Positions 7,661 through 38,498 of a DNA stretch of 42,924 bases are shown here, in pieces. The notes beneath the pieces are model-generated. The model did no database searches and was not told the origin of the DNA. It saw only the letters and a list, made by a program, of their open reading frames with translations. How positions within the stretch are numbered: the first letter of the stretch is position 1; each line of letters begins with the position of its first letter. The DNA comes from Chrysophaeum taylorii (taxonomy: Eukaryota; Sar; Pelagophyceae; Pelagomonadales; Pelagomonadaceae), in assembly GCA_029834535.1 (NCBI GenBank), contig JAQMWT010000465.1, positions 1-42,924 of the forward strand, written 5' to 3'. The position numbers were made by a program, and so were the translations under genes.

Positions 7661-7956
<296 letters not shown>

Positions 7957-8514: not shown

Positions 8515-8520
8515 CCCTTG

Positions 8521-8834
8521 TGTGGCGGAAAGGAAAATTTGCCTACCTGGGCTCACCTTCGAATCCAGGCTCGCCGCTCGCGCCCGTCTCTTGATCGAGT
8601 CAACTGGACGTGGAAGGCCGTTCACCCGCCACACAATCACAAACAACTTCCGTGGCTGGTCATCCCAACTTGAGGATCGGCTGTTGCTTTATGATTAAGA
8701 ACTCTCGAAACACCCAAATCAGGGAAGATGATGTCATAGAGAAAACTGACATCATCAGATCGGAGTAGGGTGCCCCTGATAACGGGGGGGCCTAAAGGAG
8801 GGGTAAGCCTTAGGAGGAGGAAGTTTCCGCCACA
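8521..8834 (-). repeat. 3' LTR of element A
   Basis: 314 bp, TG...CA ends, matching 18955-19271 along its whole length. The left flank CCTTG is the target duplication. The inside flank at 8835 gives a modest purine tract on the minus strand (AGGGGAG) as a candidate polypurine tract. Confidence 0.93.
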
Positions 8835-10250
8835 GGACTCCCCTGGTAAGAATACGAGCTGCCCCAGCGAGCGGCTAGCGCAAGGAGCGCGGCTCGCCTT
8901 ACGTGCATCTCGTGCACGAATCTTCTTGTAAACGCGGGTGATTATCGGTTCGGGAACTCGACCACTGCGCAAAGTAAACTTGGGCACCAACACATCAATC
9001 TCGTGCGGAGCGAACTCCGTGACACAAGGAGTTGTGCTGGATGAGATCTTGGACTTGTCGGCGAAACTGCGACCGTCAGCGTCCTTGTACTCAGGCTTAA
9101 GCTTGCGGTTCGAAAGGTGAGCGGTCGGTTCGAAATAAGCGACATCATCATTCGGACCCAAATCGGAATAGAAATGTAGAGCAACACGATCATTCTGGTA
9201 ATCGTAAGGCTCGTAAACTTCAGCAACATAGATCTTCTTGCGCCAATCAGAGCGCTTCCGGTCAGGAATCCGGAAAACAACAAACTTGCCGTGCTGATAA
9301 TCGTCGCGGAAAGTTTCTTCGGGTTTGCGGATGGCTTGATCAACGACCGGAGGAACCATCACAGGCGTGATCTGAATAACATGAACGCGTCGTTCTTCGG
9401 CCGGAGAGTCGAGAGACTCCATCTTATAGGTGACCGGGGAAAGGCGTTCCTTGATAATAAACGGTCCTCGCCATTCTGGTCGAAGCTTGTTCTGAAGGAA
9501 AGGAATGTAAAGCAAAACACACGATTATCCCTTGTATTTCACATCGACATGGTCGGCATTGTAAGCCAATCGTCGTTTCTTCAAAGCTTTATCACGAGCT
9601 TCGTGGACGATCGTCGTATAATACTTCGATCGTTCACGAGGTTCAGCGACTGCATCAGAGCGAGTCTTCGGCAACAGTCTGGTATCGAAATCCGTAAGGG
9701 GATAATCGGTTGGCAACATAGGCTGACGGTTCAGGCGTAGCATAAAGGGGGAAATGTGCGTGCCTGGGATGAATTTGCCGTTGTAGCAAAACGCAATATA
9801 ATGGGCAAAGTCGGGCCAATCCGCGATGTTCCGACCCTGAATGCAGGCACGGAGGAATGCCTTGATAAATCGGTTCACACGCTCAGCAGGATTCGACTGG
9901 GCATGATGCGGGATCGTAGTTGTGTAGCGCGTGTTGAAGAGATGGCAAAACTCGCGCATCGACTTGTTCACGAACTCTTTACCATTGTCGGTACGAATCA
10001 TCTGGGACAAGTAGCCCTTTAGGAGGATGTTAAAGACAAAAGACTCTATAATGGATTCAGCAGTCTTATCGTTCAAAACATCCAAAATCCAGAAGTGCGA
10101 GAACGGATCGAAAAACACTAGAAGATACGCCTCGGGACCAGCGCTGAGCAAAGGTCCAAATAAATCCATGCATAGAACAGCACCATCACCATCGTAGACA
10201 GGCTGCAGCAAAAGTCCAGCTCGTATCGGCTCATGTGTACGAGCTTTCTG
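8637..10250 (-). pseudogene. Integrase core and C-terminus of element A
   Basis: The catalytic core (9525-10250) shows the three acidic residues: MDLFGP, RTDNGKEF and NPAERVNRF, spaced as in retroviral-type integrases that insert cDNA into the genome. One in-frame TAA at 9525-9527 follows KYKG; the frame then continues with LLYIPFLQNKLRPEWRGPF and VHVIQITPV, the GPY/F module of Ty3/gypsy integrases. The protein then runs on about 200 residues, first with an aromatic-rich segment (about 9130-9300: FVVFRIP, SDWRKKIYVAEVYEPY, RVALHFYSDLG) that could be a small barrel fold. The last part reads into the LTR. The stop inactivates this copy. Confidence 0.85.
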
Positions 10251-10617
10251 ACTAACTAACTAACTAACTTCAGACCTCTCCCGAGCATGGGAGCCAGGCC
10301 GGACCGACAGGAGCCAGTCCGGAATCACGGGCCTGTAGACGAGGGGCGCCGAAAGGTGGGTCGGCGGAGAGTGATCATCAAGCTTGTCGCCATGCGACGA
10401 GGAGACCGCGATGTGACTGACAACCAACTCGTCGATAACCTTCCGTCTGCGCCCCCCGGCCATACCCCGTCTCACTGCGAACGTTCCGGCTGCCAACCGG
10501 CCCGCCCGAGAGGCGAATAGGTGCCAACCTACGCCGGGAGGGCGGACGCCCTCGCAAGGCTCAGGATTCATGAGGCACAATCCTCCATCGCAACCGCAGT
10601 CGGCGATCAGGGTAAGG
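10251..10617 (-). repeat. SINE-like repeat copy 2, inside A integrase
   Basis: A copy with (TTAG)n tail (TAACTAACTAAC on the plus strand) at 10251-10269 and head CGGCGATCAGGGTAAG at the other end. It splits A's integrase between the zinc-binding module and the catalytic core, so it inserted after A did. In its own sense the repeat keeps the 103-codon frame ending in the tail (10260-10571). I see no clear target duplication here. Confidence 0.9.
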
Positions 10618-10834
10618 GTATAACAGAATAAACATTCAGCAATTAAGATTCCGACTTCGTTCGACATGTGGGGTCACCGAAATCGTCCCTGGATAGCCTG
10701 GACGGTACTGTGACGTCCCATATGACCGCCGTTAACCGGAGTGTCATGGTAGAGTCGAATAATGCGCTTACGCAACGTGGCAGGGGCCAGAATCATCGAG
10801 TGCAAATCAGCAGAAATGCGGCAGAGAATGTATT
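10618..10834 (-). pseudogene. Integrase zinc-binding (H2C2) module of element A
   Basis: One minus-strand frame reads LAPATLRKRIIRLYHDTPVN then GGHMGRHSTVQAIQGRF, a stop, PHMSNEVG and ECLFCY. This is the H-x7-H ... C-x2-C integrase N-terminal zinc module. The stop (TGA) stands where a tryptophan is expected (FRWP), a one-base change. The module is cut from the core by the SINE-like insertion. Confidence 0.8.
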
Positions 10835-11775
10835 TCACAACGTCGATGGTTCGTTAGCTCTGTAACGTCGCGACGTATGACCTTGGGCCATCCGATGGCG
10901 AATATCATCGCAAGTAGCATCAGCTTCTTGCTCGCGCGCGATCTCATCGAGCGTCAAATTATCGGGAGTTTTATCAATGTAATCCTTGTATGCGGCTGCG
11001 TCCTTGAAGATCTGCGGCTCATCGCGCACGCGGTGCTTCTGACGCTGTCTCGTAGCGTGAGACGTTGCCAGTTTCATCGGATCTTGTTCGGGATCTTCCT
11101 CCTCGTCTCCCGGAAGTTCGGTCCCGACAAACGACAATATAAAGTGACAGCCGGAGGTAGGCATTCCTTGGTCATCAATAGGTCGGGGAAGCTCTTGGAA
11201 CACCAATAAGCGTGGTTCAAAGGTTCCCCAAACTCGTAAGTCTCGATGACATGATCTGTCGGATTGCGGGGGAGACAGTCAGGGATACTCATCCCCGGTG
11301 ACTTTCCAGGCTTGGAACCAAGTTCAGGGTAAAAGTTGGCGAGGCGCATCGCCCAACGAGCAAGCTGTCCAGACGAGTGCGTCGCCTTACGTAAATACGT
11401 CAAATGTCAAATTTCGGTGTTCGGTCTCCAGAACAGTCCGGTGCCCTTCGATATAGGCTCGAAAGTGCGATAGAGGAAGGATAACAACCAGTAGCTCCAG
11501 CCGACGGGGCTCATAATTGCGCATCTCCTTCGGCACGGCCCGGCTCCGAAATTCAATAGCTCGTTCTTCTCGGGTCACTCTTCCTGCCTTGTCCTTGACT
11601 TCGACAATCTGGAAGAGATATGCTCCAATTCCATCCTTGGAAGCGTCGGATCGGATCTGAAAGGGCAGATCATAATCGGGGTGGTAGACTCCTCGGGAAT
11701 GGACCAAGCTTCAATAATCGTATCCCAAGCCTTTTGACACTCGACGTCCACTCGAACCTTACGCCTTCGAGACAT
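10835..11775 (-). pseudogene. RNase H domain of element A
   Basis: Frames from 11707 leftward give RSDASKDGIGAYLFQ (first catalytic aspartate), NYEPRRLELLVVI (catalytic glutamate) and LETEHRNLTF, where the usual TDH is TEH. SGQLARWAMRLANFYPE and DCLPRNP follow, the standard end of gypsy RNase H. A linker toward integrase lies in 10835-11206 (IAREQEADATCDDIRHRM). Frame changes are needed near 11690, 11400 and 11200. The domain degrades template RNA in reverse transcription; this copy is broken. Confidence 0.8.
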
Positions 11776-12673
11776 AGTCGTCTCTGCGGTTCCACAATCT
11801 TCGAGTAGCCTTTCACATATCGGCGGCAGTAAATGCTCATGCCGATGAAAGATCGTATCTGGGTTTTCGGAGAAGTATTCGGTAAAGTACCTGGAATCGG
11901 CATCTTCTGCAGTGCTTCCAGCGTCTTCGGACGCGGCTTCGAGCCTTCTGGGGTCGAAATGTGCCCCATAAATTCTATCTCATCCTTGAGAAGATGGAAC
12001 TTTGCGGTCCGGCCGCTGTACCCTCTCTGTGCCAAATGACACATATCCTCGATCAAAACTTGTAAATGTCGATGAAGATCGTCGGATCCCATCATAATAT
12101 CGTCCCCAAACGCAACCAAGTCTCGATACATCCATTTCGAAAGGTCGCTCGCCATCTGCTTGCAAAAGGAGCTCCGGCAGTCTTCACACCCAGAGGTAAT
12201 CGCAAGAAACTATGAGCTCCAAGTGGGCTAACCATCGTGACAGCGTCATGAGCTGCCGTATCAAGACGAAGGTTGTGATATCCCCATCTAATATCAATGC
12301 ATGTTCGCCAGCGTCGCACGGCGTGAAAAGCTAAAGCGTCGTCTTGTCGAATGTTCGGCCAACTGTCATTGACCAATTGATCGTTGAGCTGACGTAAGTC
12401 AACTCCAGCGCGGAACGCGTTTGACGTTCCAATTTCAGCTCCTTTCTTGGGAAGCATCAATACAGGAAAGCCCCGAGGTGAATTAGCCGGGCGAATGACT
12501 CCATCGCGACACCATTCACTGATCTGCTTGCGGAGACAATCGAGCTTCGCAGGCGTCAATCGGTAGGGCGTCATCTTAATCGGTCGCGGATTCGCGTCTT
12601 TGAATCGTAGAGACACAGGTGGCGAGTCCACAGGTCTCATAATCGGGTCGAAAAAGGCCCAAGAATATTGCAC
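11670..12673 (-). pseudogene. Ty3/gypsy reverse transcriptase of element A
   Basis: The segment 12092-12673 has SPRGFPVLMLPKK, RAGVDLRQLND, DIRWGYHNLRLD and LRLPLGVKTAGAPFAS, the fingers and palm motifs of gypsy RT. A one-base loss near 12152 moves the reading to the next frame, which carries the catalytic box as FGDDIMM and the thumb/connection FIGMSIYCRRYVKGYSKIV. FGDD in place of YVDD/FIDD is a tolerated variant. Another indel at about 12690 breaks the link from the upstream polyprotein (CTCGTCAC, where B has CTCCGTCAT). Confidence 0.9.
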
Positions 12674-15600
12674 ACAGTGACGAGCATCAGCTTCGCGTCG
12701 TCATCTAGGTGCGGCTTGTCAGGAATTCCAAGCTCCTGAACAACCTTGTCAACTTCTCCCTTCGTAGGAATCTTCACTTCCATAGCTTCGTTATCCTTGA
12801 CATGCTCGGGAGTTTGCGGCAGCGGTGCACCATCAGCATCGCGCGGCGCATCTTTCCATGGCACATCGAACTTTTTCTCGTATTTTAATCTCACTTCCGG
12901 GTGGCTTTTGTTGATCTTCTCGCCTTTGATACGAACGCTCGGCTCGCTCTTAGTCTTCGGTACCCGATCTTGCTCAGGATCTGGCGGAACGTTCAAATTT
13001 GGTTGTCGATAATTTGGTAGTCGGGGGGGCCCAGCAGAAGAAGCGTGAGACATCCCCGGCTCATCTGTTGCAGGCGGAAGCAAAGGCACACCCGGCGGTT
13101 TCCATTCGGTGCGATCTTGCTGATCATCAGTCGACACCCATCTTACGACACGTGTGCGCGTGTTTAACAGCGGAACTTGGACGTGACGAAGGGTGGTTTC
13201 CTCGATTTGCAAATAATGTTCGAACGGTCGATCTGCAGGGCTCAACGCGGACGGCAAAGCCTCGCCGCTCAAGTGAAAATCCTTGGTCACAGAGTTGTGC
13301 AGATCGAGTATTAATAAAGCCATCGTGACTGGTGGCACGACAAACGCCAAGTGTTTCAACGAGGTCGTCCTGGAGAAGCCGGCCCCATCAAAATCAAGGG
13401 GCATCGAAAGCAACTCCGCAGTCATTTTAAAATTCAGAGATCGGTAATCGGAACGGTGCGGTCCTACGCGAAGCGGGACACGCGCAACGGTATAAGCTGC
13501 GTCCGTCGCGGCTCGTGATGATCCTAAATTGTTCATCTGAAGTAAATGCCGTTCGTCTGCGTAGCCAGGCGCAGCGGCGAATTCTTGTTGCATATTATTG
13601 CAAGTCTGGGGAACTGCGCGCAAGTGGAGCGGGTGGCTGGAGACGAACAACCGCACGCGACAGCTCATCAAGTTGGGCGTTGTGTCGTAAAAATTGACGA
13701 CGTACACATAAGGATGGAAACGTGCAACATAAGAAATAATCGAGGCCTCCTGCTCTATCAACCACATGAAGAAACCAGCCATCAAGCATAATTTCATCGT
13801 CCAGTGGGAGGCGGTGACTCCCTTGCCAACATCTCTGGAAGTCAAGTTGCACTGAGCGGAGTGTACACAGGGTGGCGACGCGATGCACATCGACGACCAT
13901 TCCGCGTAAGGTAAATCAGTTTCGATCAACCGCAAGGTTGTAACATAGCGACCACGAAGCGTGTGCTGCACCACAGGAATGCTAGGGAAATTCTTGCAGT
14001 GGATCTTGTTGGCGGTGTCCGACGAATCAAGTGCTGACACGACTCGAAACGACGTCCCACACATTTCGTTGGCTCGTTGGAGACCGAAAGTACTGCCTCC
14101 GGCTCCACTGAACAGTATCACCACCTTGCGATAAGTGATCTGAAGCGAATGAGCCTTTTCGTATCGGCGGCGGATCTCCGCTTCGGTGATCTCGCGGCAC
14201 TTCTTCTCATCTTTCTCAGACCGTCGAGCGAAATCGTCGTCTCGCTTGGGTCGTTTGGGGGAGGACGCGTCCAAAGCAGCAGCTGGAGCGTCCTTCTGCG
14301 CCGTGCTCAGCAACATCGGCGGGGGAGATTCGTCGCAGCGCGTCAAGTGGCTAGCGACGGAAACGGTGAAGGAAAGGTTCCCCTTGTCGTACCCTTCTTC
14401 ACATTCGTTCGTAAGCTCGTTGATCGTATAAACGCTCGACTCATCTTCGTATCGAACGATATCGCCACTTGCGAGAACCTCGCCTTGAGTGACGACCGTC
14501 GGCACTACTTGCGTGGAAGTAACAGCCACGCGAGCAGATGACTTGTCGTGCTCTTCGCAAGAAGAGCACATTCCCTCGACAATTCCCAGCTGCTCGTTTT
14601 CAGCAAACGTAGCGACGAAGACCTGTCCTTTTTCCATAGTCTTCGACAAAATAACCGGCAAATTGCAAGTCCGACCGGGCTCGATTTGTAGCGTGCGCGC
14701 AGCGTAAGCAACAACTTCCTGCGCGGCTTCTCCCGGAGCTGTGGAAAGTTTGGTTGTAGAATGTCCCCGCGTCGTCAAGGCTACCGCTCGTTCCGGCGGC
14801 GGGCTGCGGAGATCTTTAATCGTGCTCAAACGAGCGTAAACTCGAGTCTCGACCAGGTCGAGACTCTGCCAAAAGGCGTCGTGCTGATGGTCGTAAATCG
14901 GCACGGTTATCGGATCTCGATCGTAAACAGATCGAAAGGTCACAATGGGTGTATCGACTCGTTCACCCTTGACTTTAATCTTCTTGTGTCCGTAGACGAC
15001 TTGGGTTCGGAGAAAACAGATTCGGTCGTGGGGGTAGTCCACCGCGGCTCCTAAAACTCGGATATCGCGCCCTCCCAACAGGAAAAGACAATTGGTGTCG
15101 GCCACAATAGCGACAATGGGTGCAGCGATGTCGTCGGCGAGACCAACCCGGATCGCGATCCAACGATAGATCGTCGTCGTATTCAACCCCGATCCGCACA
15201 GCCTGCGCTTAATCGGAAGCTCGCCTTCATCGAAAATCAACTTATCTTTGGCCAACTTTCTGACCATTTCGCGGCAAATATAGGAAACATCTGCCATTCC
15301 ATCAACACCGATGGTCGTCGAGAATTTCGGTCCGTCACGATTCCTGTAGATGTGACAAGCCATAAACGTCAGAGTACCCGTATCCAAACAACAGAGTGTA
15401 ACCAAATCATCTTCGATAGTCTTGCCATCTCGCGGCGTTAACGAAGTGTGAGAACATTGGGCCCTAACTCGCTCGTCGCCGGGATTGGGCATCGACACCG
15501 CGGCTTGAGCTCTCGTTTCATTTGTCGTCGTCGTCATCGACGCAGCGCTCGCGGCAGCCTCTTTATCTGGCGCCTTCCGCTCTTCCATGACAATCTCGGA

Positions 15601-15840
15601 GGGAATCAATATCGGTAGGGGATCCCCATCTTCGGCGTTCTCTGAAGCAAAAGACCTCCCCCATAACTCGTTCATTTCGTCTTTCCATAATGCGTCCGTA
15701 TATTCATTCGTCATCTGTTGATCGTCACAGTCGGTGCCGATCGGTTCCATGTCGGCTGCGGCTTCGATTCCGTAGCTGAGCGGTCGTTCTGGTGACTTCT
15801 TTGGCAAGAAGCTCCGAGTTCTCGTCCACCAATTCTGCAA
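12637..15840 (-). CDS. Protease - C5 cytosine methyltransferase polyprotein segment
   Basis: 1067 codons without a stop. Residues 150-290 look like a retropepsin: VDGMADVSYI in the active-site place and LFLLGGRDIRVLGAAVDY as the C-terminal I/LLG strand. Residues 570-880 carry C5-methyltransferase motifs in canonical order: I, VVILFSGAGGSTFGLQ; IV, ASPPCVHSAQCN with the catalytic Pro-Cys; an ENV-like WLIEQEAS with the glutamate; VIII, SCRVRLFV; IX/X, RSLNFKMTAELLSMPLDF and LAFVVPPVTM. Such enzymes methylate cytosine C5 using S-adenosylmethionine. Residues 950-1067 are the linker to RT. The frame is open from the TAG at 15853, so the start is nominal; it was probably one Gag-Pol frame. Element B has the same arrangement at 32114-35358. 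Confidence 0.85.
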   Translation of the reverse strand: MQNWWTRTRSFLPKKSPERPLSYGIEAAADMEPIGTDCDDQQMTNEYTDALWKDEMNELWGRSFASENAEDGDPLPILIPSEIVMEERKAPDKEAAASAASMTTTTNETRAQAAVSMPNPGDERVRAQCSHTSLTPRDGKTIEDDLVTLCCLDTGTLTFMACHIYRNRDGPKFSTTIGVDGMADVSYICREMVRKLAKDKLIFDEGELPIKRRLCGSGLNTTTIYRWIAIRVGLADDIAAPIVAIVADTNCLFLLGGRDIRVLGAAVDYPHDRICFLRTQVVYGHKKIKVKGERVDTPIVTFRSVYDRDPITVPIYDHQHDAFWQSLDLVETRVYARLSTIKDLRSPPPERAVALTTRGHSTTKLSTAPGEAAQEVVAYAARTLQIEPGRTCNLPVILSKTMEKGQVFVATFAENEQLGIVEGMCSSCEEHDKSSARVAVTSTQVVPTVVTQGEVLASGDIVRYEDESSVYTINELTNECEEGYDKGNLSFTVSVASHLTRCDESPPPMLLSTAQKDAPAAALDASSPKRPKRDDDFARRSEKDEKKCREITEAEIRRRYEKAHSLQITYRKVVILFSGAGGSTFGLQRANEMCGTSFRVVSALDSSDTANKIHCKNFPSIPVVQHTLRGRYVTTLRLIETDLPYAEWSSMCIASPPCVHSAQCNLTSRDVGKGVTASHWTMKLCLMAGFFMWLIEQEASIISYVARFHPYVYVVNFYDTTPNLMSCRVRLFVSSHPLHLRAVPQTCNNMQQEFAAAPGYADERHLLQMNNLGSSRAATDAAYTVARVPLRVGPHRSDYRSLNFKMTAELLSMPLDFDGAGFSRTTSLKHLAFVVPPVTMALLILDLHNSVTKDFHLSGEALPSALSPADRPFEHYLQIEETTLRHVQVPLLNTRTRVVRWVSTDDQQDRTEWKPPGVPLLPPATDEPGMSHASSAGPPRLPNYRQPNLNVPPDPEQDRVPKTKSEPSVRIKGEKINKSHPEVRLKYEKKFDVPWKDAPRDADGAPLPQTPEHVKDNEAMEVKIPTKGEVDKVVQELGIPDKPHLDDDAKLMLVTVCNILGPFSTRL

Positions 15841-15852
15841 GTTCCACGTCGA

Positions 15853-16875
15853 CTATGCTTCGTCCAAATCGAGAGTGCTGCTAATCTTCTTCTTAAATCC
15901 ATCTTCTTCGCTTGGGTTCGGCTCTACTCCAGCAACGCCGTCACGGCTCTTCTCTCTTGGCGGTGACAAATCCGGGCATTGCTTAAATCGGGAAAGCGTC
16001 CCTTTCGTCTTCGGACCGTGCACGTGGCCTCTCGTCCGACGTATTATGCGTTTTCGTGTCCTTTTCTTCCGGCGGCGAGTCCGTGGCTCGATCCGTCGTA
16101 ACCGAAACCGTTTCGGGGGGTCCGCAGGAAAAGATGGCGTCGTCCCCGATGTCAACTCTATCGCAAGATCATCGTCTGTATCGCTCGCAATTGTCATCGT
16201 CTCAACTGTCGAATGATCATCCGTGTTATCGCTGTAGAAATCCTTGTCTTGCTCACTGCCAGTCCGGTCGCAAAAGGTCATCTCGGGGGGATCCAAAGAT
16301 AAGCCGATAGCGTCGAGGGCTTCCTCGTCAAAAACAAACGGCGGGTCGTCCTTGGACGACGCGCAAAGTAACATAATCGAGGACACTGGTTCACAAGGTA
16401 TGGCCTCTTCGTCTTCCGAGTCCGAATCGCCTTCCCAGTATCGTGGAGCTTCGAGTTCATCGCTCGACTCTTCGAGTTCATCGCTCGACATCTCTTCATA
16501 AATCTGTGCCAAAGACCGACGATCGGTCAGCACGACGTTGGGTGGCTCGTCCGGCTGTGGGCGAGCAAGATCTTCGAATGCGGCCGCAAAAGCGTCGGCT
16601 GCGTTGTCGGAGCGGGTGTCCGTGTTCGGGTACATCATCACTCCTAATGGTAGCTGTTGACCGCACGGGGTCGTGAACGCGAAAGTAGCGCTCAAAGAAC
16701 CCAAATTATATCGGTATCGGCCTCCGTCGTGTTCGTCGTCGCACGATCGGCGTCGTCTGTGCCGGCGCGAACTTCGACTGGAGCTCTTGTTATCTTTGTC
16801 TCTCTCTGGCGTCAGTTCGGCAGGTCCTAGCATCTCTGGATCGGCTTCGTCCCTGTAGGCGACTGGTGCTCCCAA
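15853..16875 (-). CDS. Gag C-terminal / pre-protease segment of element A
   Basis: About 340 codons in the same frame as both neighbours, bounded by in-frame TAGs at 16882-16884 and 15853-15855. It begins with an Arg/Ser-rich stretch (SSSRSSRRHRRRRS) that may bind RNA in place of a zinc-knuckle nucleocapsid. Then come TTPCGQQLPLGVMMYPNTDT and an acidic Ser/Glu region. Element B has the same segment with DEDEPTWNLQ where A has DEA-stop-STWNLQ, so the second TAG is a nonsense change of a GAG codon. Confidence 0.7.
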   Translation of the reverse strand: MGAPVAYRDEADPEMLGPAELTPERDKDNKSSSRSSRRHRRRRSCDDEHDGGRYRYNLGSLSATFAFTTPCGQQLPLGVMMYPNTDTRSDNAADAFAAAFEDLARPQPDEPPNVVLTDRRSLAQIYEEMSSDELEESSDELEAPRYWEGDSDSEDEEAIPCEPVSSIMLLCASSKDDPPFVFDEEALDAIGLSLDPPEMTFCDRTGSEQDKDFYSDNTDDHSTVETMTIASDTDDDLAIELTSGTTPSFPADPPKRFRLRRIEPRTRRRKKRTRKRIIRRTRGHVHGPKTKGTLSRFKQCPDLSPPREKSRDGVAGVEPNPSEEDGFKKKISSTLDLDEA

Positions 16876-16881
16876 GTCTAT

Positions 16882-18684
16882 CTAAACTGCCTCAATCGTC
16901 TCGTCTATCGAAACATCGACACGTGCGTCGTCTTCTTGCCCGAACTCCGACCAAACGTAAATTAACTCACCGTTGGCGAATAAATCCATGCCTCGGGGTC
17001 GGAATCGAAATTCTTTCCGCTCTGGCGGTTTCTTCCTTAGGAAACAGTGAGCTCGCATCCTTATCGTCGGCACGCTCATCTTCCTCTTATCCATGCTGAT
17101 CGTCCCATCCAAATTCGATTCTGGGCGGCAGCTATACTCATCCCTCATAGTCTGTTCGGGATCTTTCTTTATCACATAGCCATCATCATATGCAGGCTGC
17201 AAATCTTTGAACTCTTCGTTCGTGAGTAATACGCCAGGGCTTTCACAGAGCTCCAAAGGCGGTTCATGCATTTTAAGGTTCTTCACCTCGTATTTCGTAT
17301 CCATCTTCTCGGCCACTTCACTCGGCCTATCATCAGCTCCATCGCTTTTAATGCCGGCAGTCGCCTCGTCACTAAAAATGTCCGCACACGAAACGTCTGC
17401 CATCGTCATAAAGAACAAAACGTATGCAAAAACGTCTGCAATCGGTTCGTCGGGGGGCCCTGCGAGAGAAGAAGACGTCGTCCCCGACGTCACATCTGTC
17501 AAGAAATGGCCATCAGAGAGCACGTGACGTTCGATGGGCGTGTAAACAGGTGCGCGCTTATCATTAGAGATAATCCTCTGCGACGCATCGTTGATCGATC
17601 GTGGAGACGAAGTGTCATCCACTCGAATGTCCGGAGGTAGACTCATAGCATCGAGCGTAGCAGCGGCGGGTCCATTCCTTTGGGCGTCATCGGCTGCGCG
17701 GGGCTCGTAAATCGGATTCAAACTTAACTCCGGCTCGTCGTCAAAACCAAGGGCTGTGTTAGCTGACGACCAATCGTATCGTGCCACAAACGGTGACGCC
17801 GGGTCAGAAGCGGTTGTTGGCTTCGGCCCGTAGTCTAACGACGCTTCGGTCAGATTCTTCGATCCTGTGGGGATTTTGGTTTGGGTGAGCTCCTTCGACT
17901 TGGATTGCTCTTGCTCGTAGTTTAACGACGTTTCGGTCATCTCGGACGACTCGTCGTCGTCGTCGCGCGGCTTCCTAACTTTCGCGCGCGTTCGCGTAGG
18001 CGGCGGTTCCTCCGAGGGTCGGAATTCTCCCTCAGGACTGCTCGCTCGCCTCGAGCGACTCGGCGTGCGCCATTCATCCCTCCCGCGGGTCAACAGTCGT
18101 GCTTGCTCGTATAACTCATATGATCGAGCGTGTGCGTGCCGCAGTTGCTCTTGCATTACCCCTATCTTCTTCTGGCGTAGCCATTCACGCCGCATATTCT
18201 CTTCTTCTATCAGCTGGATGAGGATCTCTTGGGCGCGCTCATTTTCTCGACGTATATCGCGCAAATGCGCTTCGTATATTTTCGTAATGTTCGGTGGTTC
18301 ATCGTCTCGCGCACGTTCTGGATGGGCTGCCGGTTGCCTCGCCGGCGGCACTCTCGGCGGTTCATCGCCGTTGTAGTTCGGCTCCTCTTCCTCATCATCA
18401 TCATCATTATCATGCCGTTCGTTCGTCCCCTCGGGACGACTTGAAGGTTCGGTTTCTCGTATCTGCTCGTCAGCAGCGTCGTCTTCCTCCATATCGGCGT
18501 CGGCTCGCTCCAATCGGCCAAAATCAGAACGGGTCCAAGAAGGTCGAGTCGTCGTCGTTCTCGTGCTCCTACGACTCTGGGACTTTAACTCGTCCACGTC
18601 ACGCGCAATATCGTCGCCGCGTGCGTCTTCCACCGACCGATCTATCGGTTCCGGTGGGCGGCAGAGTCCGTCTCTGCCCGGCAA
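16882..18684 (-). CDS. Gag-like N-terminal protein of element A, 600 aa
   Basis: Residues 60-110 are acidic. Residues 130-200 form a charged coiled coil (IYEAHLRDIRRENERAQEIL). A basic patch follows (TPSRSRRASSP, then TRAKVRKPRDDDD). These parts match element B's N-terminal Gag. After about residue 245 the similarity stops. Where B has a capsid-like helical domain, A has unrelated sequence, including two copies of a peptide (MTETSLNYE, LTEASLDYG) encoded by the recurring 20-base motif. No capsid fold is recognisable, so A may have needed capsid in trans. Ends in TAG at 16882, in frame with what follows. Confidence 0.7.
   Translation of the reverse strand: MPGRDGLCRPPEPIDRSVEDARGDDIARDVDELKSQSRRSTRTTTTRPSWTRSDFGRLERADADMEEDDAADEQIRETEPSSRPEGTNERHDNDDDDEEEEPNYNGDEPPRVPPARQPAAHPERARDDEPPNITKIYEAHLRDIRRENERAQEILIQLIEEENMRREWLRQKKIGVMQEQLRHAHARSYELYEQARLLTRGRDEWRTPSRSRRASSPEGEFRPSEEPPPTRTRAKVRKPRDDDDESSEMTETSLNYEQEQSKSKELTQTKIPTGSKNLTEASLDYGPKPTTASDPASPFVARYDWSSANTALGFDDEPELSLNPIYEPRAADDAQRNGPAAATLDAMSLPPDIRVDDTSSPRSINDASQRIISNDKRAPVYTPIERHVLSDGHFLTDVTSGTTSSSLAGPPDEPIADVFAYVLFFMTMADVSCADIFSDEATAGIKSDGADDRPSEVAEKMDTKYEVKNLKMHEPPLELCESPGVLLTNEEFKDLQPAYDDGYVIKKDPEQTMRDEYSCRPESNLDGTISMDKRKMSVPTIRMRAHCFLRKKPPERKEFRFRPRGMDLFANGELIYVWSEFGQEDDARVDVSIDETIEAV
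17833..17852 (-). repeat. Recurring 20-base motif, copy 1
   Basis: Reads TGACCGAAGCGTCGTTAGAC on the minus strand, two differences from the consensus TGACCGAAACGTCGTTAAAC. Lies in A gag, encoding LTEASLD. Confidence 0.7.
17920..17939 (-). repeat. Recurring 20-base motif, copy 2
   Basis: Exact consensus TGACCGAAACGTCGTTAAAC on the minus strand, followed by TAC, encoding MTETSLNY in A gag. It lies 87 bases from copy 1. Confidence 0.8.
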
Positions 18685-18934
18685 TAAATGCCTTAGTGAG
18701 TTGCGATCTCACTCCGCTCGCCTGCGGCAGCGGTACCCGGGTTGCGCGTCGGCTCGAACCGATCCGCGCGTCGTCACCTCCGACGACCAAAGTATCCGGC
18801 CGGGGATCTTTCCCACGGCGATGGTCCCTTTCGAACTCTTCTCGGCGCGCTTGATCAGGGCGCGCACGGCTTGTCCGGACCGTGTAGAGAATGCAAGATG
18901 CACTCGTCCGCTGCGACCGATGTGGTCGCTCGAA

Positions 18935-18952
18935 TCTCGCATTCCTCAACCA
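18935..18952 (-). promoter_or_regulatory. Primer-binding site of element A
   Basis: Two bases inside the 5' LTR the minus strand reads TGGTTGAGGAATGCGAGA. A TGG start is expected for pairing with a tRNA CCA end. Element B has TGGTGGAGAAATACGAGA at the same place. The primer tRNA is not identified. Confidence 0.7.
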
Positions 18953-18954
18953 TA

Positions 18955-19271
18955 TGTGGCGGAAAGGGGAATTTGCCTACCTAGGCTCACCTTCGAATCT
19001 AGGCTCGCCGCTCACGCCCGTGCTCTTGATATCGAGTCAACTGGACGTGGAAGGCCGTTCAACCGCCACACAACCACAAACAACTTCCGTGCCTGGTCAT
19101 TACAACTTGAGGATCGGCTGTTGCTTTATGATCAAGAACTCTTGAATCACAGAAACCAGGGAAGATGATGTCATAGAGAAAACTGACATCATCAGATCGG
19201 AGTAGGGTGCCCCTGGTAACGGGGGGACCAAAAGGAGGTGTAAGCCTTAGGAGGAGGAAGTTTCCGCCACA
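18955..19271 (-). repeat. 5' LTR of element A
   Basis: 317 bp, TGTGGCGGAAA...TTTCCGCCACA, followed on the right by CCTTG, the target duplication shared with 8516-8520. The LTR should hold promoter and polyadenylation signals; no strong TATA box is obvious. Confidence 0.93.
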
Positions 19272-20996
19272 CCTTGTTAGATTTAGACGCAGGTTTGGGG
19301 GGAATGTTAGGAGATACTGTGAATGACGACATCCACCCTCGGACCCTACTCCAGAGGCTGGAAAAGTGCGTCAAATCATGAATATTCAGTATGTAGTGCG
19401 CGCGCAAGGCCTCCACGCTCGCCCACTGTGAGACCGCTTAGTGAGAGCGCCGGCGTGCACGTTCGTGTTGGTGTCATGGGCCACACGCTCGAGTGGGATG
19501 GGCGGGAGGTCCCCCCCGCGGTTCACAAGGCGCGGAGTGCACCTTACAGGGATCAACCTTTCAGAGACAAAGGGTTGAAAGTGCTGGCGTTCTTTAGTGA
19601 AGAAGAGGCGGTGCTGGACGCCCCTAGAACCTCAACACGGACGACTCCGTCGAAGTTGACGGTCGCGGCGAACGTCAAGACAAAGCTGACGCTCAAGGCG
19701 AGCCCATTGTGGTCTAGAGTTTCAACGCGCGAACATAGGGGACTATCTGCCGGGTGAGAGCCACGATGACGACAATGGCCGCAAGGACGACGGAGATGTT
19801 GATTTGGAAGACGACGATTACGGGAGAGACGAAGAGCAAGATGGTACGGTCTAATTCGACGAGTTTTAAGTTCCTCCAGGCTTCTCGTTCGTCGACAAGC
19901 CGGCATCCTTTCTCCGCGAGGACGAAAGATCCCGCTCTACGTTCTAATTTGCTGCTTGGACACCTCGACGAGGACCTTTGAGAGCCATATGTGGTGATTC
20001 GGGAGGGTGGTCAAGTTCAAGCCGCGGGCCCGGGTCTACAACTGCGACGTTCAGTGGGACAGCAACACGCCTCGTCAGCAGGGGCTTAAACTCGAAAACA
20101 GTGTGGACGACAGTCGAACTCCGACTGTTAAGGCTGATTGCTGGTGCCAGAAGAAGACACTCCCCTCTGCCTCTGCTGCCTCTTCCCGCCGGCCGCTTAT
20201 CCTAGATGGCGCCGACGTCGACGAGACTCCTCGCCAGCACCGCCGCATCGACGACGGAGGCTCGAAGCTCTCGAAGCTCTCAAAGCCGCAAGCGTTGCGA
20301 CTGAAACGCTGCTAGCATTGCAATCGAAGTTAAACGCAACACTCAAACAAACCACCGAGGCAGCCGCATGCTCACGTTCGCACTCCCCCCCCCCTCTTAG
20401 CAGTTGACCTTTAAAGACTTTCCTAAAACCACTGAACGCCTTGCGTGCTCACACCACCGCACTCCCCGCGCTGGTGGCGGTCGCAGACACCTCAGTGGAC
20501 ACCCACGTGTCTCTATTGAGCGTTTTAGCCACTTTGGGCTCAGTCCGCCAGGTGGCCGATAATCTCCTCTCCAGTTCCAAATTTCCGCGGAAATGGAATA
20601 AACTGGAAATTCCCGGAAGTTTCCAGATCGGCTGTCCACTTTTCCGGAAATACGCGAGTCATACCTTGAGGACCTTGAGGGACTTCTGGATGTCTTCTTG
20701 GCTTGCTTGGGTAGATTCCCTGGCGGACTTCTTTGCCAAGGTTTGAACAAATTACCGGGTGAAAACTTCGGTCTGGAAGCGCACGTTATTGCGTCTGTTT
20801 TGTCGCGGAGTGATCCCGGCAGGGCGCCTGGGATCCCACAACCTTGAAGCAACAAAACTCAGTCACTCCAGAGAGTGATTGACCTAGAGGGAGCCCGTGA
20901 TGAACACGGCGTTAGACATCTCGCCATGTTAATGGTAGTAAGAGACTAAGAAAAGAATGGCTAGGGTCACTAGTATAGGGCTAGGAGCACTGAAGT
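19272..20996. other. Unassigned sequence right of element A
   Basis: After the target duplication, 19290-19330 reads GGTTTGGGGGGAA then TGTTAGGAGATACTGTG, which looks like a plus-strand polypurine tract and LTR start of copia type, but no second copy or end was found. The rest holds frames of 70-150 codons on both strands (for example 19323-19757 plus, 19553-19906 minus) without recognisable motifs. 20390-20419 shares CCCCTCTT and GACCTTTAAAGAC with 7630-7656. Confidence 0.3.
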
Positions 20997-21495
20997 CAAC
21001 GCGCGCATGACGCGGCCCTTCCTGGAGACGAGGCGTCGGAGTTCTTTTCGGACGACGAGGTGGGTCGGAAGACGATGCCTCGCTCTTTCCAGTCGAGTTT
21101 CTCAACTTCCTGACAACCAACGGCAGGCCGACGTTGATCGCGAGCGTAAAGTCTTCGCAATCTCGACCCGTCGCACGGCCACTGCAACGGCACCCGATAC
21201 ATCATCGATCGTGTCGTGTCGCCGAGGCTCCTCCAACCAGTTTCCCTGAAGGCCCGCCTTCGCCAACACGATCGACAAGAACCAGGGCCAGACGCCCCGC
21301 AATGTCGGCGTCCTCTTGCCCAAGCCCGTCTTCAGCCACGGCCATCTTAACATGGCTCTCCGCTGAGTGGGCAAGCCCGAGGACATTGTCTCCTGGGTCA
21401 CCGACTCCACCCTACCCCACACGTGCTGCGCAATACCGATAAGCCCTCTCCCGGCGTCTACTCGCGCACTGTCGTCTATGGGGAGGTCCTCGGGT
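20997..21495 (+). pseudogene. Helitron/PIF1-type helicase C-terminus, copy 1
   Basis: Frame-hopping gives GDEASEFFSDDEVGSEDDAS, then VEFLNFLTTNG, DPSHGHCNGTRY-like residues, then QGQTPRNVGVLLPKPVFSHG. The frame ends with PGVYTRTVVYGEVLG and a stop at 21493-21495. The order of the SaD, EFLNSL, NGTR, SQGQT and NVVYKEVL boxes is the C-terminal end of Helitron Rep-helicase, which unwinds DNA for rolling-circle transposition. Several frameshifts and stops are present. No Rep domain or Helitron ends were found. Confidence 0.8.
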
Positions 21496-21600
21496 AGCCA
21501 CCCTCTCTCCCACAGCAGAGTCGTCGGGTTTAGAGCTCAGCAGGCCGCAGCACTGACACATGCGTGTTAAACAGAGAATGAAGAAGTTGAACACCCCTAG

Positions 21601-21815
21601 AAGGACGAGTGTTTGCGAGGGACCGGGTCGAAATGAGCCCAGAGCTAAAGGGGTGTAAGCTCTGGTTTCAACTGGACTTACTGCCTGCACTTGAAGGCGA
21701 GTGTTTGCGAGGGACCGGGTCGAATTGAGCCCAGAACTAAAGGGGTGTAAGCTCTGGTTTCAACTGGACTTACTGCCTGCACTCGAAGGCGAGTGTTTGC
21801 GAGGACCGTCGAAGT
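21601..21815. repeat. Tandem repeat, about 92-bp unit, 2.3 copies
   Basis: Units start at 21601, 21694 and 21786, each with CGAGTGTTTGCGAGG, GGGTGTAAGCTCTGG and ACTTACTGCCTGCACT. The first two are nearly identical and the third stops after about 30 bases. The array lies just downstream of the Helitron helicase stop. Confidence 0.9.
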
Positions 21816-22252
21816 CAGCACAGAACGAAACTTTGTGGGGTTTGAGATTTAGGAAAAAGTGAATGTGGGGTTGGAGATTGGGACCAGGTGAACTTACCGG
21901 CCTGCACTGGCAAAAAAATTAGGGCCGGCGCGGCAGGGCCTTTGGTTGAAAGTATACAAGAAACTATATAAGACACCTTCAAGTGAGAACTACAAGTATA
22001 TAACACAGCGTTCAAGTCATCGAGGTCAAGGTTCGCCTGCGCGGGCGATGGCGACGCCTTCGGCGTGGCGGAGCGCAAGCGGGACGGCGAGGCGCGGGTT
22101 CGGGCCGGCGATGGGCGGCAAGTGGTCTCCCGCCTCGCCGACCGCCGGACGGTTTGTCTCGTCATCCCGAGCCCGCGGCGGTCCGCCGTCGCTCGCCACG
22201 AAGGCGCGAGCCATGACGCGGTTTATCGCGAGAAAAAAACGGAAGATGTCCT
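21816..22252. other. Helitron-associated repeat edge and GC-rich island
   Basis: 21866-21910 contains GGAGATTGGGACCAGGTGAA and ACTTACCGGCCTGCACTGG, which recur at 27592-27840 beside the other helicase copy. From about 22020 to 22230 the sequence becomes GC-rich, with open frames on both strands but no recognised protein. Confidence 0.4.
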
Positions 22253-22390
22253 AAGCAGTCTTGCGTCCTATTGGTAATTTCTCTCTCTAACAAGCTACTT
22301 ACGGCTTATCTTTTCGGTTTTTCTTCTTTCTTTCCTGGTTTGGAAGCAGTGTTGCATCCTATAGGTCATTTCTCTTTATAGCAAGTAAAA
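22253..22390. repeat. Imperfect direct duplication, about 45 bp
   Basis: AAGCAGTCTTGCGTCCTATT at 22253 recurs as AAGCAGTGTTGCATCCTATA at 22344, both continuing into a TTTCTCT tract and an AGC(A/T)A(A/G)... stretch, 91 bases apart. The flanking AAACGGAAGA / ATACGGAAGA is also repeated. Confidence 0.7.
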
Positions 22391-22990
22391 AGAAAATACG
22401 GAAGACTGACAGGACACACAGACGGGACGTACATTGAACTTCCCGTTTTTTGCGATCCGTCTAGTATGCAATATACTGATATACGGAGTTGGCGACGACG
22501 GTTTCGCGCACGCATTAATCACCCGAAGAGCTTTGGCAAACAGCCTCTCTTCGAGAGGGTTAGTTTTTCAACCAAAGGATAAAGTCTGCGCCTCTCAACT
22601 CGTTAACAGCTACAAATCCTGTTGATGGAACCGAGTTCCAGAGACAGCTGCGAAATCGGATAATGGGGCCGGCCGTCCGTCCGACCGTCTACTATCGAAA
22701 ATATAAGGGCGATGTAGCTATTAGGGGGCGACCACGTTGGATTTTATATGTATAGAGAACAGTAATCACAACTGTGTTGCCCTTCAGCAGAGCGTGAGAA
22801 CAGTGGTAGTCTGTCCTCGAATCTGTCTCTTAATCGAGGACAGCCGGTGTGAATAACACAGCGTTTTCTTAAATCAAAAGGTGGCAAAGTTAAGTGAACT
22901 AACCCTATAATAGGGGGTACTAACCCTAATTCGGATTTTCTATCTCTACGCCCTCACAGATTGAACGCGGGGAGCGAAATCTGGATCAAA
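22391..22990. other. Possible 3' LTR/UTR region of element E
   Basis: This lies directly 3' of the copia RNase H frame (minus strand), where a 3' UTR, polypurine tract and LTR would be expected. On the minus strand a purine-rich run (GAGGGCGTAGAGATAGAAAA, 22935-22954) could be the polypurine tract and TACATATAAAA (near 22750) a TATA-like site. No second LTR copy exists in the window, so boundaries are not called. Confidence 0.3.
22811..22843. other. Perfect 10-bp hairpin
   Basis: CTGTCCTCGA, a 13-base spacer, then TCGAGGACAG. The arms are exactly complementary. It lies in the presumed 3' region of element E. No poly-T run or other terminator feature follows. Confidence 0.7.
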
Positions 22991-23690
22991 CTAAGCAGGA
23001 AGCGTCTTACCATCGACAAGAATGTAGAGAGTGTTCTGGACAGAGTCGTACGGTGGAAGAGTAGCCGAAAGAGTAACTTGATGTGATGGTGGTGAGGATG
23101 AAGTGGAGTGAACGCCGTAGGCGTTTTTGAACTTGTGAAACAAGTTGCGTGGAAGGAGCTTCGAAAAATGATCAGCGACCTGGTAGAGAGTAGGACACCA
23201 GAGAGGTCTAATGATCGAATTAGCTTGGTAGTCACGAATGCGAAATTCTCGTAAGTTGATATGACGAGAAGGAGCACTGACTTTAGGATGATTAGCGACA
23301 TGTAGTGCGCTAGCGTTATCAATAAGCAATGGAATAGCGTGAGCGTGATCACACGAAAACAGATAGGGGTGAGATGAGAAAAGCTTGTAGAACCAGTGAC
23401 ATTCATCAGCGGCTGCGCTGGCGGCGATGAGTTCAGCTTCCATGGAGCTTCTGGCAGTAAGAGTTTGTCGTTGCTAGACCAAAATACGAGATTGCCAAAG
23501 ACGAATATACATGCACCAGCATTGGACCGTAAGCGAGGGCCAGAACGATCAGCAAAGCTTGCATCAGCAAAACAGATGATAGGTGAACGAAGGTGATGCA
23601 GTTCAGAATAGCGGGCGATCAGATGAAGAACGAAGGGGGTAATAGACGGGCTGGCGGATGAATGGTCGAGGGAGTCATTCGGAGTGCCCT
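22991..23690 (-). pseudogene. Copia RNase H of element E
   Basis: From 23690 leftward one frame reads IICFADASFADRSGPRLRSN and NLVFWSS (first aspartate and the W-S-S strand). After a frameshift near 23440 it continues with MEAELIAASAAADECHWFYK, LLIDNASALHVANHP and SRHINLREFRIRD. VADHFSKLLP is the normal end of copia pol. The residues are well kept, the frame is not. Confidence 0.85.
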
Positions 23691-23691
23691 T

Positions 23692-24852
23692 TCAGTAGCG
23701 AAGTAAAACATATAAGTGCAGAAGGTGTGTTTGGTCGGGGTTGTGCATCCCCTTGCAGGATTTGTTGCACAAGGTGGTGATGTCAGGCCGACATGTGACA
23801 GACAAATAAATGCTGGTGCCACAGTAGAAAGGGAAGTTTTGGCGTAATACGTCTAAGGTAGTAGCCAAGTCTGAGAGAAGTTTAGTAGAAGGTTTTTGGA
23901 TGAGGATGTCCGAATAGGGGACGTCTAGACTATGTAGGTTGAGCTTATGCTCAGCAGGCATCTTGTTGATCTTCGCTGCTACATTCATAGTGAGATGACC
24001 AGCGGAGACATTGTAGTGAACATCGATGCCAAGAAAGGATCGGATGTTGTCATGCCACGTACCTTTGCCATATTCAGTCTCCAGAGCGGTGCGAAGAGAC
24101 GCAATTTTGGCAGTGTTGGTACCAGTGATCAATAGGTCATCGACTGTAACGGATACTAATACCCATTTGTTGATAGGCCGATCCCAATTAATATAGAGAC
24201 AAGTGTCGGCTTGTGAGCGTTCGAACTCGTGTTGTCGAAGAAACGAGTCGAGCTTAGTGTTCCACAACAAAGCTGACTGTTTGAGGCCCTAGAGAGCCTT
24301 GATGAGTCGGAGAGCGAGCTTCGACTCTTGATGGTTCTTCTGTGTCTGCTGGATAAGATTCGGCGAGACACGTATTCCTCCAGGAAAGTCGATCCATACT
24401 GGGCGATCGAGTGCCGATTGGATGAATGCCTGAGGAATGTCCGCGTGCGCGACCGGGAGCTTGTGCTTCACAGCGATGGCGAGCAGTAGCCGGTTGGTAG
24501 CAAGCATTGCGGTTGGGGAGGATGTGGCATAAAAGTCAATGCCTACACGTGCCAAGCAACCTCGGGCGACTAGACGAGATTTATAGCGGCCCGGAGTGCC
24601 GTCAGCAAAGTACTTGATCTTCAGCACGAGCTTCGTCGAGATAGACGAACGGTCGGGCGGTAAAGGTTCCAGCTTGAAGACACCGTTGGAGCACAATCCT
24701 TCCATTTCCTTGTGAATCGAAGCGACATGCTTTAACTTATCATCTTCGCGGAGTCCTTTGAGTTCGACAATCTTTTCAGGCTCATAGACAATATCCTCGG
24801 CGGTCACGAGCTGTAACACGACGTGATCGATGTGCTTCAAATCATAGTCCAT
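23692..24852 (-). pseudogene. Copia reverse transcriptase of element E
   Basis: The N-terminal half (24289-24852) has HKEMEGLCSNGVFKLEPLP, YKSRLVARGC and HADIPQAFIQSALDRPVWI, the fingers/palm of copia RT. A stop/frameshift at about 24285 precedes the C-terminal half (23692-24270) with the catalytic box as SVTVDDLLITG and FLGIDVHY as connection. VTVDD replaces the usual YVDD. Reverse transcription activity is lost through the break. Confidence 0.85.
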
Positions 24853-24855
24853 GAC

Positions 24856-25989
24856 TTATTGTAGAATATCTTGATTCGGATCACTTTGGCTTAGGAAGAG
24901 GTGTCCGAGTTCGCCAGAATCATGCATGAAGGCATGCCTGCGACGAGAAGCTAGGTGGTAGTGTTGATGCGCGGAGATGTCCCACAAGAGAGAGGAACCC
25001 ATACAACAAAATTCTCGATTCCATTGACGCACATAGTACTCTGCCGGTGACATTTCGTCATGGCACACGTAGTTCTCGAGAACATAATTGTCGTTATCAA
25101 GGTGGTCAACCAACACAGATGAGTGGTATGGCTTCCTGGGGAAGTCAACATGCAAGAGTTCTGCGTCGGTTTCTCTCTGCAAGTCCAGTGCGGTGCCGCC
25201 CATGATACCATAGTCTTGTGTGGTGCTTGCAAGGAGACATCCTTTCGGGACATCATTAGGCGGCTTAGCATCTCTTCGAATGTTGAGAGCAGAGGCGATG
25301 CTGGTGGCGTGGCCCTGGTGCAGATCGCTGACACTGATGAGGAACATCAATGTGCTGGACATGTTGGCTGTGGCGTGAGCCGTGGATTGCTCCTGCTGGT
25401 GTTTTCAATTGCGACCATACTCTGAGGCGATAATGCGTCTGGTGAAGAGTTTTCCATCGTCAACACGTTTCACAATATAGAGTTGATTCTTAGGGATGCG
25501 GAATCCACGTTCGTCATTGAGATCTGCTTTGAGCTTGTCGCTCTGGTTGCGATGCACGAGAACTGGTGTAAAAACTGAATCGTCGAGAACAACCTCTAGG
25601 CGATATTTTCGTTTGGGCATCGGCATGCTACCATCCGGCGGAGGTGGCCGGTTGAGGAACGAAAAATCCCGTTCAGATGTCGCGTCGCTGACGGGACTTG
25701 AATCAGCAGCGGGAGTTGGATCCGGTTCTTAGTGTTCGTCGTCATCGCTAGGTTTATCATCGTGCTCGTCTTCGTGCGTGTCGCCCTCATTTTTTGATTC
25801 CTGTCTAACTTCCGGCATTTGCTGTTCGCTTATAGCTGGTAGCGGGTCCTCTTGTCGTCCCTTTGTTGGGATCTGTGCGAGTGCTTTGATCCGTTCGATC
25901 TCCTTGTTACTGTTGACTGGCATGTCTGCGTCGACATGGAAGTCGTTTGAGGTGACGATTTTCCCATATCGCCATTGATGTACAAGCAA
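24856..25989 (-). pseudogene. Integrase-RT spacer region of element E
   Basis: Three consecutive minus-strand pieces (24856-25362, 25405-25626, 25729-25989) fill the gap between integrase and RT. The middle one (RLEVVLDDSVFTPVLVHRNQ) and the acidic end of the third (EDEHDDKPSDDDEH) resemble variable copia spacers. No enzymatic motif is visible. Stops between pieces show decay. Confidence 0.5.
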
Positions 25990-26043
25990 GATAGAGCTGT
26001 GAACTTCTCGGATAAATCGGTCCGTTCCGGGGAGGTTCGGGAG

Positions 26044-26893: not shown

Positions 26894-26905
26894 TCTTTTG
26901 GCGTG

Positions 26906-38159: not shown

Positions 38160-38498
38160 TGTGGCGTAAGGAGAATTTGGGCCTACCTGACGTGCCTTCG
38201 AATCCTGGCTCGCCGCTCGCGTCCGTGCCCTTGACGGATGGAGTCACTGGACGAGGATGGCCGTTCTCTCGCCACACAACCACAAACAACTTCCGTGCCT
38301 GGTCCTCACAACTTGAGGATCGGCTGTTGATTTATGATTAAGATATTATCGAAACACAGAAATCAGGGTGACACATGTCACGGAAAAGGAAGATGATGTC
38401 ATAAAGAAAAGTGACATCATCATGACGGAGTAGGGTGCCCCTGATAAGGGGGTCCCTAGAAGAGGGGTAAGCCGTAGGAGGCGGGAGTTGCCGCCACA
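38160..38498 (-). repeat. 5' LTR of element B
   Basis: 339 bp with ends TGTGGCG...CGCCACA, aligning with both A LTRs over its length, with about 20 bases extra near 38370 (ACACATGTCACGGAAAAGG). The right flank GTTCG should be the target duplication. Its partner is lost with the 3' end. Confidence 0.9.

Follow-up and report, generated by a model that had tools for sequence, protein, structure and literature searches.

A Ty3/gypsy retrotransposon family of Chrysophaeum taylorii carries a predicted C5-cytosine-methyltransferase domain between its protease-like region and reverse transcriptase

What would a cytosine-5 (C5) methyltransferase domain do inside the polyprotein of a retrotransposon? 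The question is raised by a long minus-strand open frame in a 42,924-nucleotide stretch of Chrysophaeum taylorii DNA (contig JAQMWT010000465.1, here C465; assembly GCA_029834535.1, 70.8 Mb in 697 contigs); this whole stretch is called the window below. An earlier note, made from the letters alone, had read the frame as part of a Ty3/gypsy element with a methyltransferase between protease and reverse transcriptase (RT). The frame is present and this reading holds in its main point: a C5-methyltransferase-family domain lies between a protease-like region and an RT which, in an intact copy from elsewhere in the genome (L031), is nearest to the RT of Ty3. We consider it rather probable that this Gypsy element captured the methyltransferase into pol, that selection has kept it there, and that it most likely methylates the element's own complementary DNA (cDNA).

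The frame and the parts of its methyltransferase domain in the window copy, copy A, are given here, with motif counts from the 31 copies compared.

12637..15840, minus strand: open frame of 1067 amino acids with protease-like region, linker, C5-methyltransferase domain and linker to the RT
13126..14163, minus strand: C5-cytosine-methyltransferase domain of copy A, residues 560-905 (PF00145, 22.2 bits, E 1.1e-4)
14095..14112, minus strand: motif I, FSGAGG (LFSGAGG in 28 of 31 copies)
13867..13875, minus strand: motif IV, PPC, with the predicted catalytic Cys (PPC in 31 of 31 copies)
13747..13758, minus strand: IEQE, equivalent of motif VI, which is usually ENV (LIEQ in 31 of 31 copies)
13651..13662, minus strand: CRVR, equivalent of motif VIII (RVR in 30 of 31 copies; its last Arg in 31 of 31)
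13330..13341, minus strand: VVPP, candidate motif X (in at least 29 of 31 copies)

Of the motifs that the earlier note had named, those of I, IV, VI, VIII and X were located at codon level. Motif I, PPC, the Glu of motif VI (31 of 31 copies; IEQE in 30, IEQG in one) and the Arg of motif VIII stand in the order found in C5-methyltransferases, and the Cys is separated from the Glu by a spacing of 38 residues, as it is in HhaI (HhaI numbering). Motifs VI, VIII and X were assigned by motif reading and conservation, outside the profile alignment. In the PF00145 search that the earlier note had proposed, the isolated copy A domain scored just above the cut-off of 22 bits, and all 27 stop-free copies tested were matched (E <= 0.1; best E 2.1e-6); the four of the 31 copies with a stop in the domain were excluded from this test. 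Two further libraries name the same function: in PHROG, two DNA-methyltransferase families match both copies searched, with a best E of 1.7e-6 in L031 and of 8.1e-6 in copy A, and the NCBIfam dcm model gives weak matches in three of three copies (E 0.0009-0.026; 14-19 bits, where the cut-off is 100.65). We take the domain to be a diverged C5-methyltransferase in which the key residues are kept, and treat it as a candidate enzyme.

Several observations weigh against this assignment. The full 1067-residue frame of copy A reaches 18.2 bits with PF00145, under the cut-off, and in the copies whose alignment was inspected the profile covers 56-86 residues, motifs I-IV only. Motif VI reads IEQE instead of ENV, motif VIII is without the usual Gln, and the AlphaFold model of the domain (mean predicted local distance difference test, pLDDT, of 31) is uninformative. 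Moreover, when a profile of the domain was searched against PDB, unrelated GGA1 chains (E 0.069) ranked above DNMT2 (E 1.0). The divergence of motifs VI and VIII, together with the restriction of the profile match to the N-terminal part, would fit a domain which no longer catalyses methyl transfer and is retained as an S-adenosylmethionine-binding or structural spacer in the polyprotein; however, Cys, Glu and Arg are invariant in all 31 copies, in contrast to variable positions elsewhere, and we regard such a loss as unlikely.

The domain is present far beyond the window. A genome search gave at least 117 matches on 107 contigs (117 of 1064 candidates scored), of which at least 93 are stop-free and at least 79 of these are 340 or more amino acids long; with the query protein P0001, at least 47 match rows were obtained (43 of 1622 candidates scored). 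An assembly join, a concern of the earlier note, is ruled out by these numbers. At least 90 RT matches were scored (of 1350 candidates), and in 49 of the 90 the domain precedes the RT on the same strand, at a distance of 280-579 bp which lies between 516 and 527 bp in at least 43 of the 49 pairs. That the motifs are a chance string or an artefact of assembly is hardly credible: the 18.2 of 22 bits of the full copy A frame would fit it, but PF00145 is found in 27 of 27 copies with two other libraries agreeing, the matches are spread over more than a hundred contigs, and their spacing to the RT is near-constant where both are listed.

The remaining 41 of the 90 RT matches are without an upstream domain among the matches listed, and 30 of the 41 are also without a protease-region match. 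Since these lists are incomplete, absence of the domain from them says little. In 10 of the 11 RT matches which have a protease-region match and no listed methyltransferase, the gap between protease region and RT measures 2.13-2.35 kb; of 33 copies with the domain, 31 have a gap of 2.24-2.30 kb and two have gaps of 1.91 and 2.62 kb. Because the gap is of the same size without a listed methyltransferase match, the domain is probably standard across the Gypsy family. At one locus, C119:3430-6753, the gap is 1.22 kb, about 1 kb under the usual size, and this copy may lack the methyltransferase region.

A deeper Gypsy subfamily (C235, C244, C676, C619, C665 and others) also carries the domain, at 78-81% identity to L031, with a protease region of about 65-66% identity. 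It seems probable, therefore, that the domain was gained before the subfamilies split, and its sequence appears to have diverged less than that of the protease region. Pairwise dN/dS has a median of 0.22 in the domain (31 copies), 0.24 in the protease region (29 copies), 0.30 in the linker that precedes the domain (31 copies) and 0.20 in the linker that follows it (22 copies). Distances in the domain and in the RT are correlated (Mantel r 0.61, 0 of 2000 permutations, 19 copies). Judged from these comparisons, the domain is inherited under constraint together with the RT.

The two neighbours of the domain differ in how well they are recognized. The retropepsin-like region named by the earlier note stands as a motif reading, ...VDGMADVSYI...LLGGRDIRV, with DGM where D-S/T-G is usual (VDGMA in 28 of 30 frames scanned, VDGLA and VDVMA in one each), whereas a Pfam scan of two intact copies gave no protease match. 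Slightly upstream of this protease-like motif, a DTG occurs in copy A and L031. On the other side, the intact copies L031 and L023 match RVT_1 (E about 5e-12; 5.3e-12 for L031) and RT_RNaseH (E 2.7e-25 and 1.6e-25), and the closest PDB chain to the L031 RT is that of Ty3 (4ol8, E 7.3e-47; Ty3 Gag-Pol, E 1.4e-46). The Ty3-type RT/RNase H is thus established through L031, as the RT of copy A is broken. The claim that domain and RT share one frame fails for copy A, where the RT lies in another frame and has stops, and holds for copies on other contigs: on contig C5, two copies stay open without a break over 3067 and 3063 amino acids, and a 2050-residue stretch of each comprises the domain, RVT_1 and RNase H. 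In L031 and L023, the frame is continuous from the gag-position region into pol.

Copy A itself extends over 8516-19276 on the minus strand of C465, and its other features, together with the second Gypsy copy of the window (copy B), are as follows.

8516..8520, no strand: target site duplication CCTTG, left (sequence reading)
8521..8834, minus strand: 3' long terminal repeat (LTR) of copy A, TGTGGCGGAAAC...CTTTCCGCCACA (repeat comparison and sequence)
8637..9515, minus strand: open frame in which one stretch weakly resembles Integrase_p58_C (23.5 bits; cut-off 27)
9525..10211, minus strand: integrase core, rve (PF00665, E 9.1e-11; D16-D75-E110, D-E spacing 35)
10253..10618, plus strand (orientation arbitrary): dispersed repeat of 366 bp, an insertion within the pol region of copy A (repeat comparison)
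11000..12673, minus strand: RT region of copy A, broken by stops and frame changes (frame reading)
15016..15393, minus strand: retropepsin-like region, on a motif basis
15853..18684, minus strand: two upstream open frames (340 and 600 amino acids) in gag position
18930..18952, minus strand: candidate primer binding site TGGTTGAGGAATGCGAGATTCGA, which resembles the complement of a tRNA 3' end
18955..19271, minus strand: 5' LTR of copy A (repeat comparison and sequence)
19272..19276, no strand: target site duplication CCTTG, right (sequence reading)
32243..33283, minus strand: C5-methyltransferase domain of copy B (PF00145, 24.6 bits, in the open frame 32114-34063)

The LTRs and the CCTTG duplication were thus confirmed on both sides. 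Both LTRs of copy A start with TGTGGCGG and end with CCGCCACA, having the TG...CA ends of LTR retrotransposons, and the candidate primer binding site begins two bases past the 5' LTR; a search of the window and the loci examined found no tRNA gene with which the site could be compared. The RT is followed downstream on the same strand by a DD35E integrase, which is the Ty3/gypsy order. RVT_1 is matched in 11670-12155 at E 0.0079, under the Pfam cut-off, and a Pfam scan of the gag-position frames gave no domain above cut-off. The two LTRs are 92.7% identical (Kimura two-parameter distance 0.085), and because of this divergence, the broken RT and the inserted 366-bp repeat, we conclude that copy A is an old, damaged Ty3/gypsy LTR element with an open methyltransferase frame. 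Inverted copies of the 366-bp repeat, 96-97% identical, lie at 38813-39178 and 41506-41872, and a fourth copy of about 78% identity at 1223-1532. The domain of copy B is 86.5% identical to that of copy A, and an LTR-like repeat at about 38160-38499 is its 5' LTR.

We assessed the affinity of the Gypsy domain by four PDB sequence searches, in which DNMT2/TRDMT1 chains were the only methyltransferases matched. These matches were weak and confined to motifs I-IV (best E 0.37 for copy A, 0.082 for L031 and 0.011 for copy B, in addition to the profile search mentioned above). As significant similarity over the whole domain was not found, we do not assign it to DNMT2/TRDMT1, which is a stand-alone enzyme, a tRNA C38 methyltransferase with ENV and QxRxR motifs. 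No DNMT3 chain was matched in PDB at E up to 10, a test of low power because HhaI and other bacterial C5 enzymes were unmatched too. With hhalign, motif I was aligned to the host DNMT2 (E 3.5e-4, probability 37%), while a recent derivation from the host DNMT5 was unsupported (E 0.36). Outside this genome, three queries against viral contigs and a DNA search of plasmids returned no relatives; phage records gave three matches at E 0.2 or worse, two of them annotated as methyltransferases.

The genome holds a second family of retrotransposons with such an enzyme, of which the earlier note said nothing. A genome-wide PF00145 search listed at least 57 places (123 of 474 candidates scored), none within the window, and we examined 12 of the 57: one is a DNMT2 gene (PDB 1g55, E 3.9e-39), one a DNMT5 gene, and ten are one further methyltransferase (pieces 69-100% identical). 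The DNMT5 gene (L016, 2910-9170) is a single frame of 2086 amino acids with PF00145 and an SNF2 domain; its sole PDB match, at 1012.8 bits, is 7r76, whose molecule is named Rad8 and which we take to be the Cryptococcus Dnmt5 structure. DNMT5 is a maintenance enzyme. The further methyltransferase belongs to Ty1/copia elements (L003-L013, on C4, C120, C64, C326, C683, C564, C582, C96 and C314). The copia-type RT, RVT_2, was found in three loci (L004, which is the same as L009, L012 and L013), and it shares one frame with PF00145 in L012 (1952 amino acids) and L013 (1868 amino acids); searched against the genome, the L012 frame gave at least 42 match rows, with 24 of 2317 candidates scored. Integrase matches of this family are under the Pfam cut-off (E 0.0061-0.093), and its protease is recognized by the motif IDGGASF. 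The methyltransferase sits directly after this protease-like motif and before the integrase region; between methyltransferase and integrase there is a conserved stretch. For this place a 2-oxoglutarate oxygenase was considered and dropped, since no such Pfam match was found and the AlphaFold model (pLDDT 31) was uninformative.

Nine sequences of the Copia domain keep the motifs LPCQ, VENV and ISK.R, and bacterial C5 enzymes are matched weakly by the profile of this domain (E 0.011-0.34). That the Copia and Gypsy domains share a recent origin is unsupported (hhalign E 0.07, probability 0.8%), and by these comparisons the two appear to have no detectable relationship beyond the superfamily. The window itself contains a partial copy of this second family, between Gypsy copies A and B.

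20997..27539, minus strand: partial Ty1/copia copy of the second methyltransferase-carrying family

This copy has LTR-like repeats at 20997-21472 and 27056-27539 which are 87% identical. It keeps the integrase and the RT region (RVT_2), with 93% identity to residues 997-1952 of L012 and 89% to residues 934-998; the half with gag, protease and methyltransferase is missing, and no match to L012 residues 1-844 was found.

How might the Gypsy element use its enzyme? We propose that a multi-copy Ty3/gypsy element long ago took a C5-methyltransferase domain into pol, between the protease-like region and the RT; the sequences show that the domain has since been retained under purifying selection. As part of the polyprotein, it would be packaged along with RT and integrase. 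Its substrate would most likely be the element's own cDNA or an RNA/DNA intermediate, before or during integration; new copies would arrive marked, and the host DNMT5 could then maintain the mark. For this methylation and its upkeep we rely on the position of the domain, on the presence of the host DNMT5 gene, and on the published statement that de novo methylation of CG is within the abilities of other retrotransposon DNMTs (PMC5890265, de Mendoza et al. 2018). The gain for the element may lie in being tolerated, or in a delay of host defences. The Copia methyltransferase, at the same place of its polyprotein, would argue for a selective use of that position. If so, mobile elements may write the very mark that hosts normally use for silencing them. 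A further case whose enzyme looks different from those published, together with two captures at one polyprotein position in a genome of this size, suggests repeated selection for an in-particle methyltransferase.

The test for a CpG mutation footprint tells against this proposal, and the suggestion of the earlier note that the element methylates its own or host DNA to hide from silencing found no support in it. Among nearest Gypsy copies (26 pairs, 30 copies) the C/T difference is 0.0166 at CpG, 0.0151 at CHG and 0.0194 at CHH, and among nearest Copia copies (6 pairs, 9 copies) 0.0338, 0.0363 and 0.0416, respectively; an excess at CpG is absent in both sets. The Gypsy loci show no CpG depletion, their ratio of observed to expected CpG (o/e) being 1.28-1.38; it is 0.99-1.10 in Copia loci and 1.22-1.46 in six host loci from two contigs. 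This test is weak because the host itself is CpG-rich despite its DNMT5 gene.

The lack of a CpG mutation footprint would also be expected if the domain were an active, or once active, C5-methyltransferase acting on RNA instead of DNA, with the primer tRNA or the RNA of the element as its substrate. DNMT2 methylates tRNA, and it is DNMT2/TRDMT1 chains that PDB returned as the only, weakly matched methyltransferases, and the host DNMT2 whose motif I was aligned by hhalign, DNMT5 giving nothing. However, these DNMT2 matches are short and individually insignificant, GGA1 chains outrank them in the profile search, and motif I is common to the whole superfamily; an RNA substrate seems to us rather doubtful.

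The enzyme could also act in trans on the host genome, with de novo methylation coming from retrotransposons and the host DNMT5 restricted to maintenance. Among the 12 PF00145 places examined, only DNMT2 and DNMT5 lie outside retrotransposons, and both retrotransposon families are abundant; but this count covers 12 of the 57 listed places and 123 of 474 candidates, and a host DNMT gene with many introns could escape such a search. We think such action in trans improbable. Equally speculative is a broader version, in which Gypsy and Copia elements would have independently captured different C5-methyltransferases in the same post-protease slot and their packaged enzymes would supply the de novo methylation of the host, which DNMT5 only copies; if it were true, mobile elements would write the epigenome of their host. 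The genome offers a compact system for testing whether such elements methylate their own cDNA and whether they provide de novo methylation to a host that has DNMT5.

How much of this is new? The parts of PMC5890265 seen here describe as published DNMT-bearing retrotransposons SymbioLINE, SymbioDIRS and KnitGypsy-Dnmt3, that is, two lineages, dinoflagellates and charophytes. KnitGypsy-Dnmt3 of Klebsormidium nitens, as presented there, is also a multi-copy LTR Gypsy with a C5 DNMT within Pol, so the kind is already known, and it too is under purifying selection (Ka/Ks < 0.2, compared with a median of 0.22 here). It differs in that its enzyme is Dnmt3-related, whereas the Gypsy domain here gave no DNMT3 match (a weak test), and in that its repeats are DIRS-like, whereas the present element has a normal pair of LTRs and a target duplication of 5 bp. 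SymbioDIRS-Dnmt3 and SymbioLINE-Dnmt of Symbiodinium are likewise retrotransposon-encoded C5 DNMTs, there in hundreds of copies, the SymbioLINE enzymes forming an orphan lineage; their carriers are DIRS and LINE elements, while here they are LTR Gypsy and Copia. According to the same account, Symbiodinium Copia elements are without any DNMT domain, unlike the Copia family described here, and SymbioLINE copies are CpG-depleted, which the present elements are not (PMC5890265). The orchid Ty3/Gypsy element Gypsy_Pa_2799, in the portion of PMC9289625 consulted, has also captured a nucleic-acid methylation enzyme; this is an AlkB-type RNA demethylase, an N6-methyladenosine eraser in a separate open frame, and not a C5-methyltransferase inside pol.

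A literature search over titles and the starts of abstracts, which did not include the host name, returned no Copia element with a C5-methyltransferase and no Gypsy capture besides KnitGypsy-Dnmt3. One sentence in the available text of PMC12344493 places DNMT3 in 'LTR Copia and DIRS', citing PMC5890265, which says Gypsy for the charophyte element; the accessible parts of PMC9998398 and PMC11105155 hold no additional case of a retrotransposon methyltransferase. As far as searched, what is new is a Gypsy enzyme without detected DNMT3 kinship (the test being weak) and, within one genome, a parallel capture by a Copia family. The separate capture event suggested by the earlier note is favoured, as the precedent is a Dnmt3 and that weak test gave no DNMT3 match here, but it is unproven.

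Rfam at gathering thresholds gave no match in the window and six loci. At 7661-7956, the window has a long AG-rich microsatellite of about 49 six-base units.

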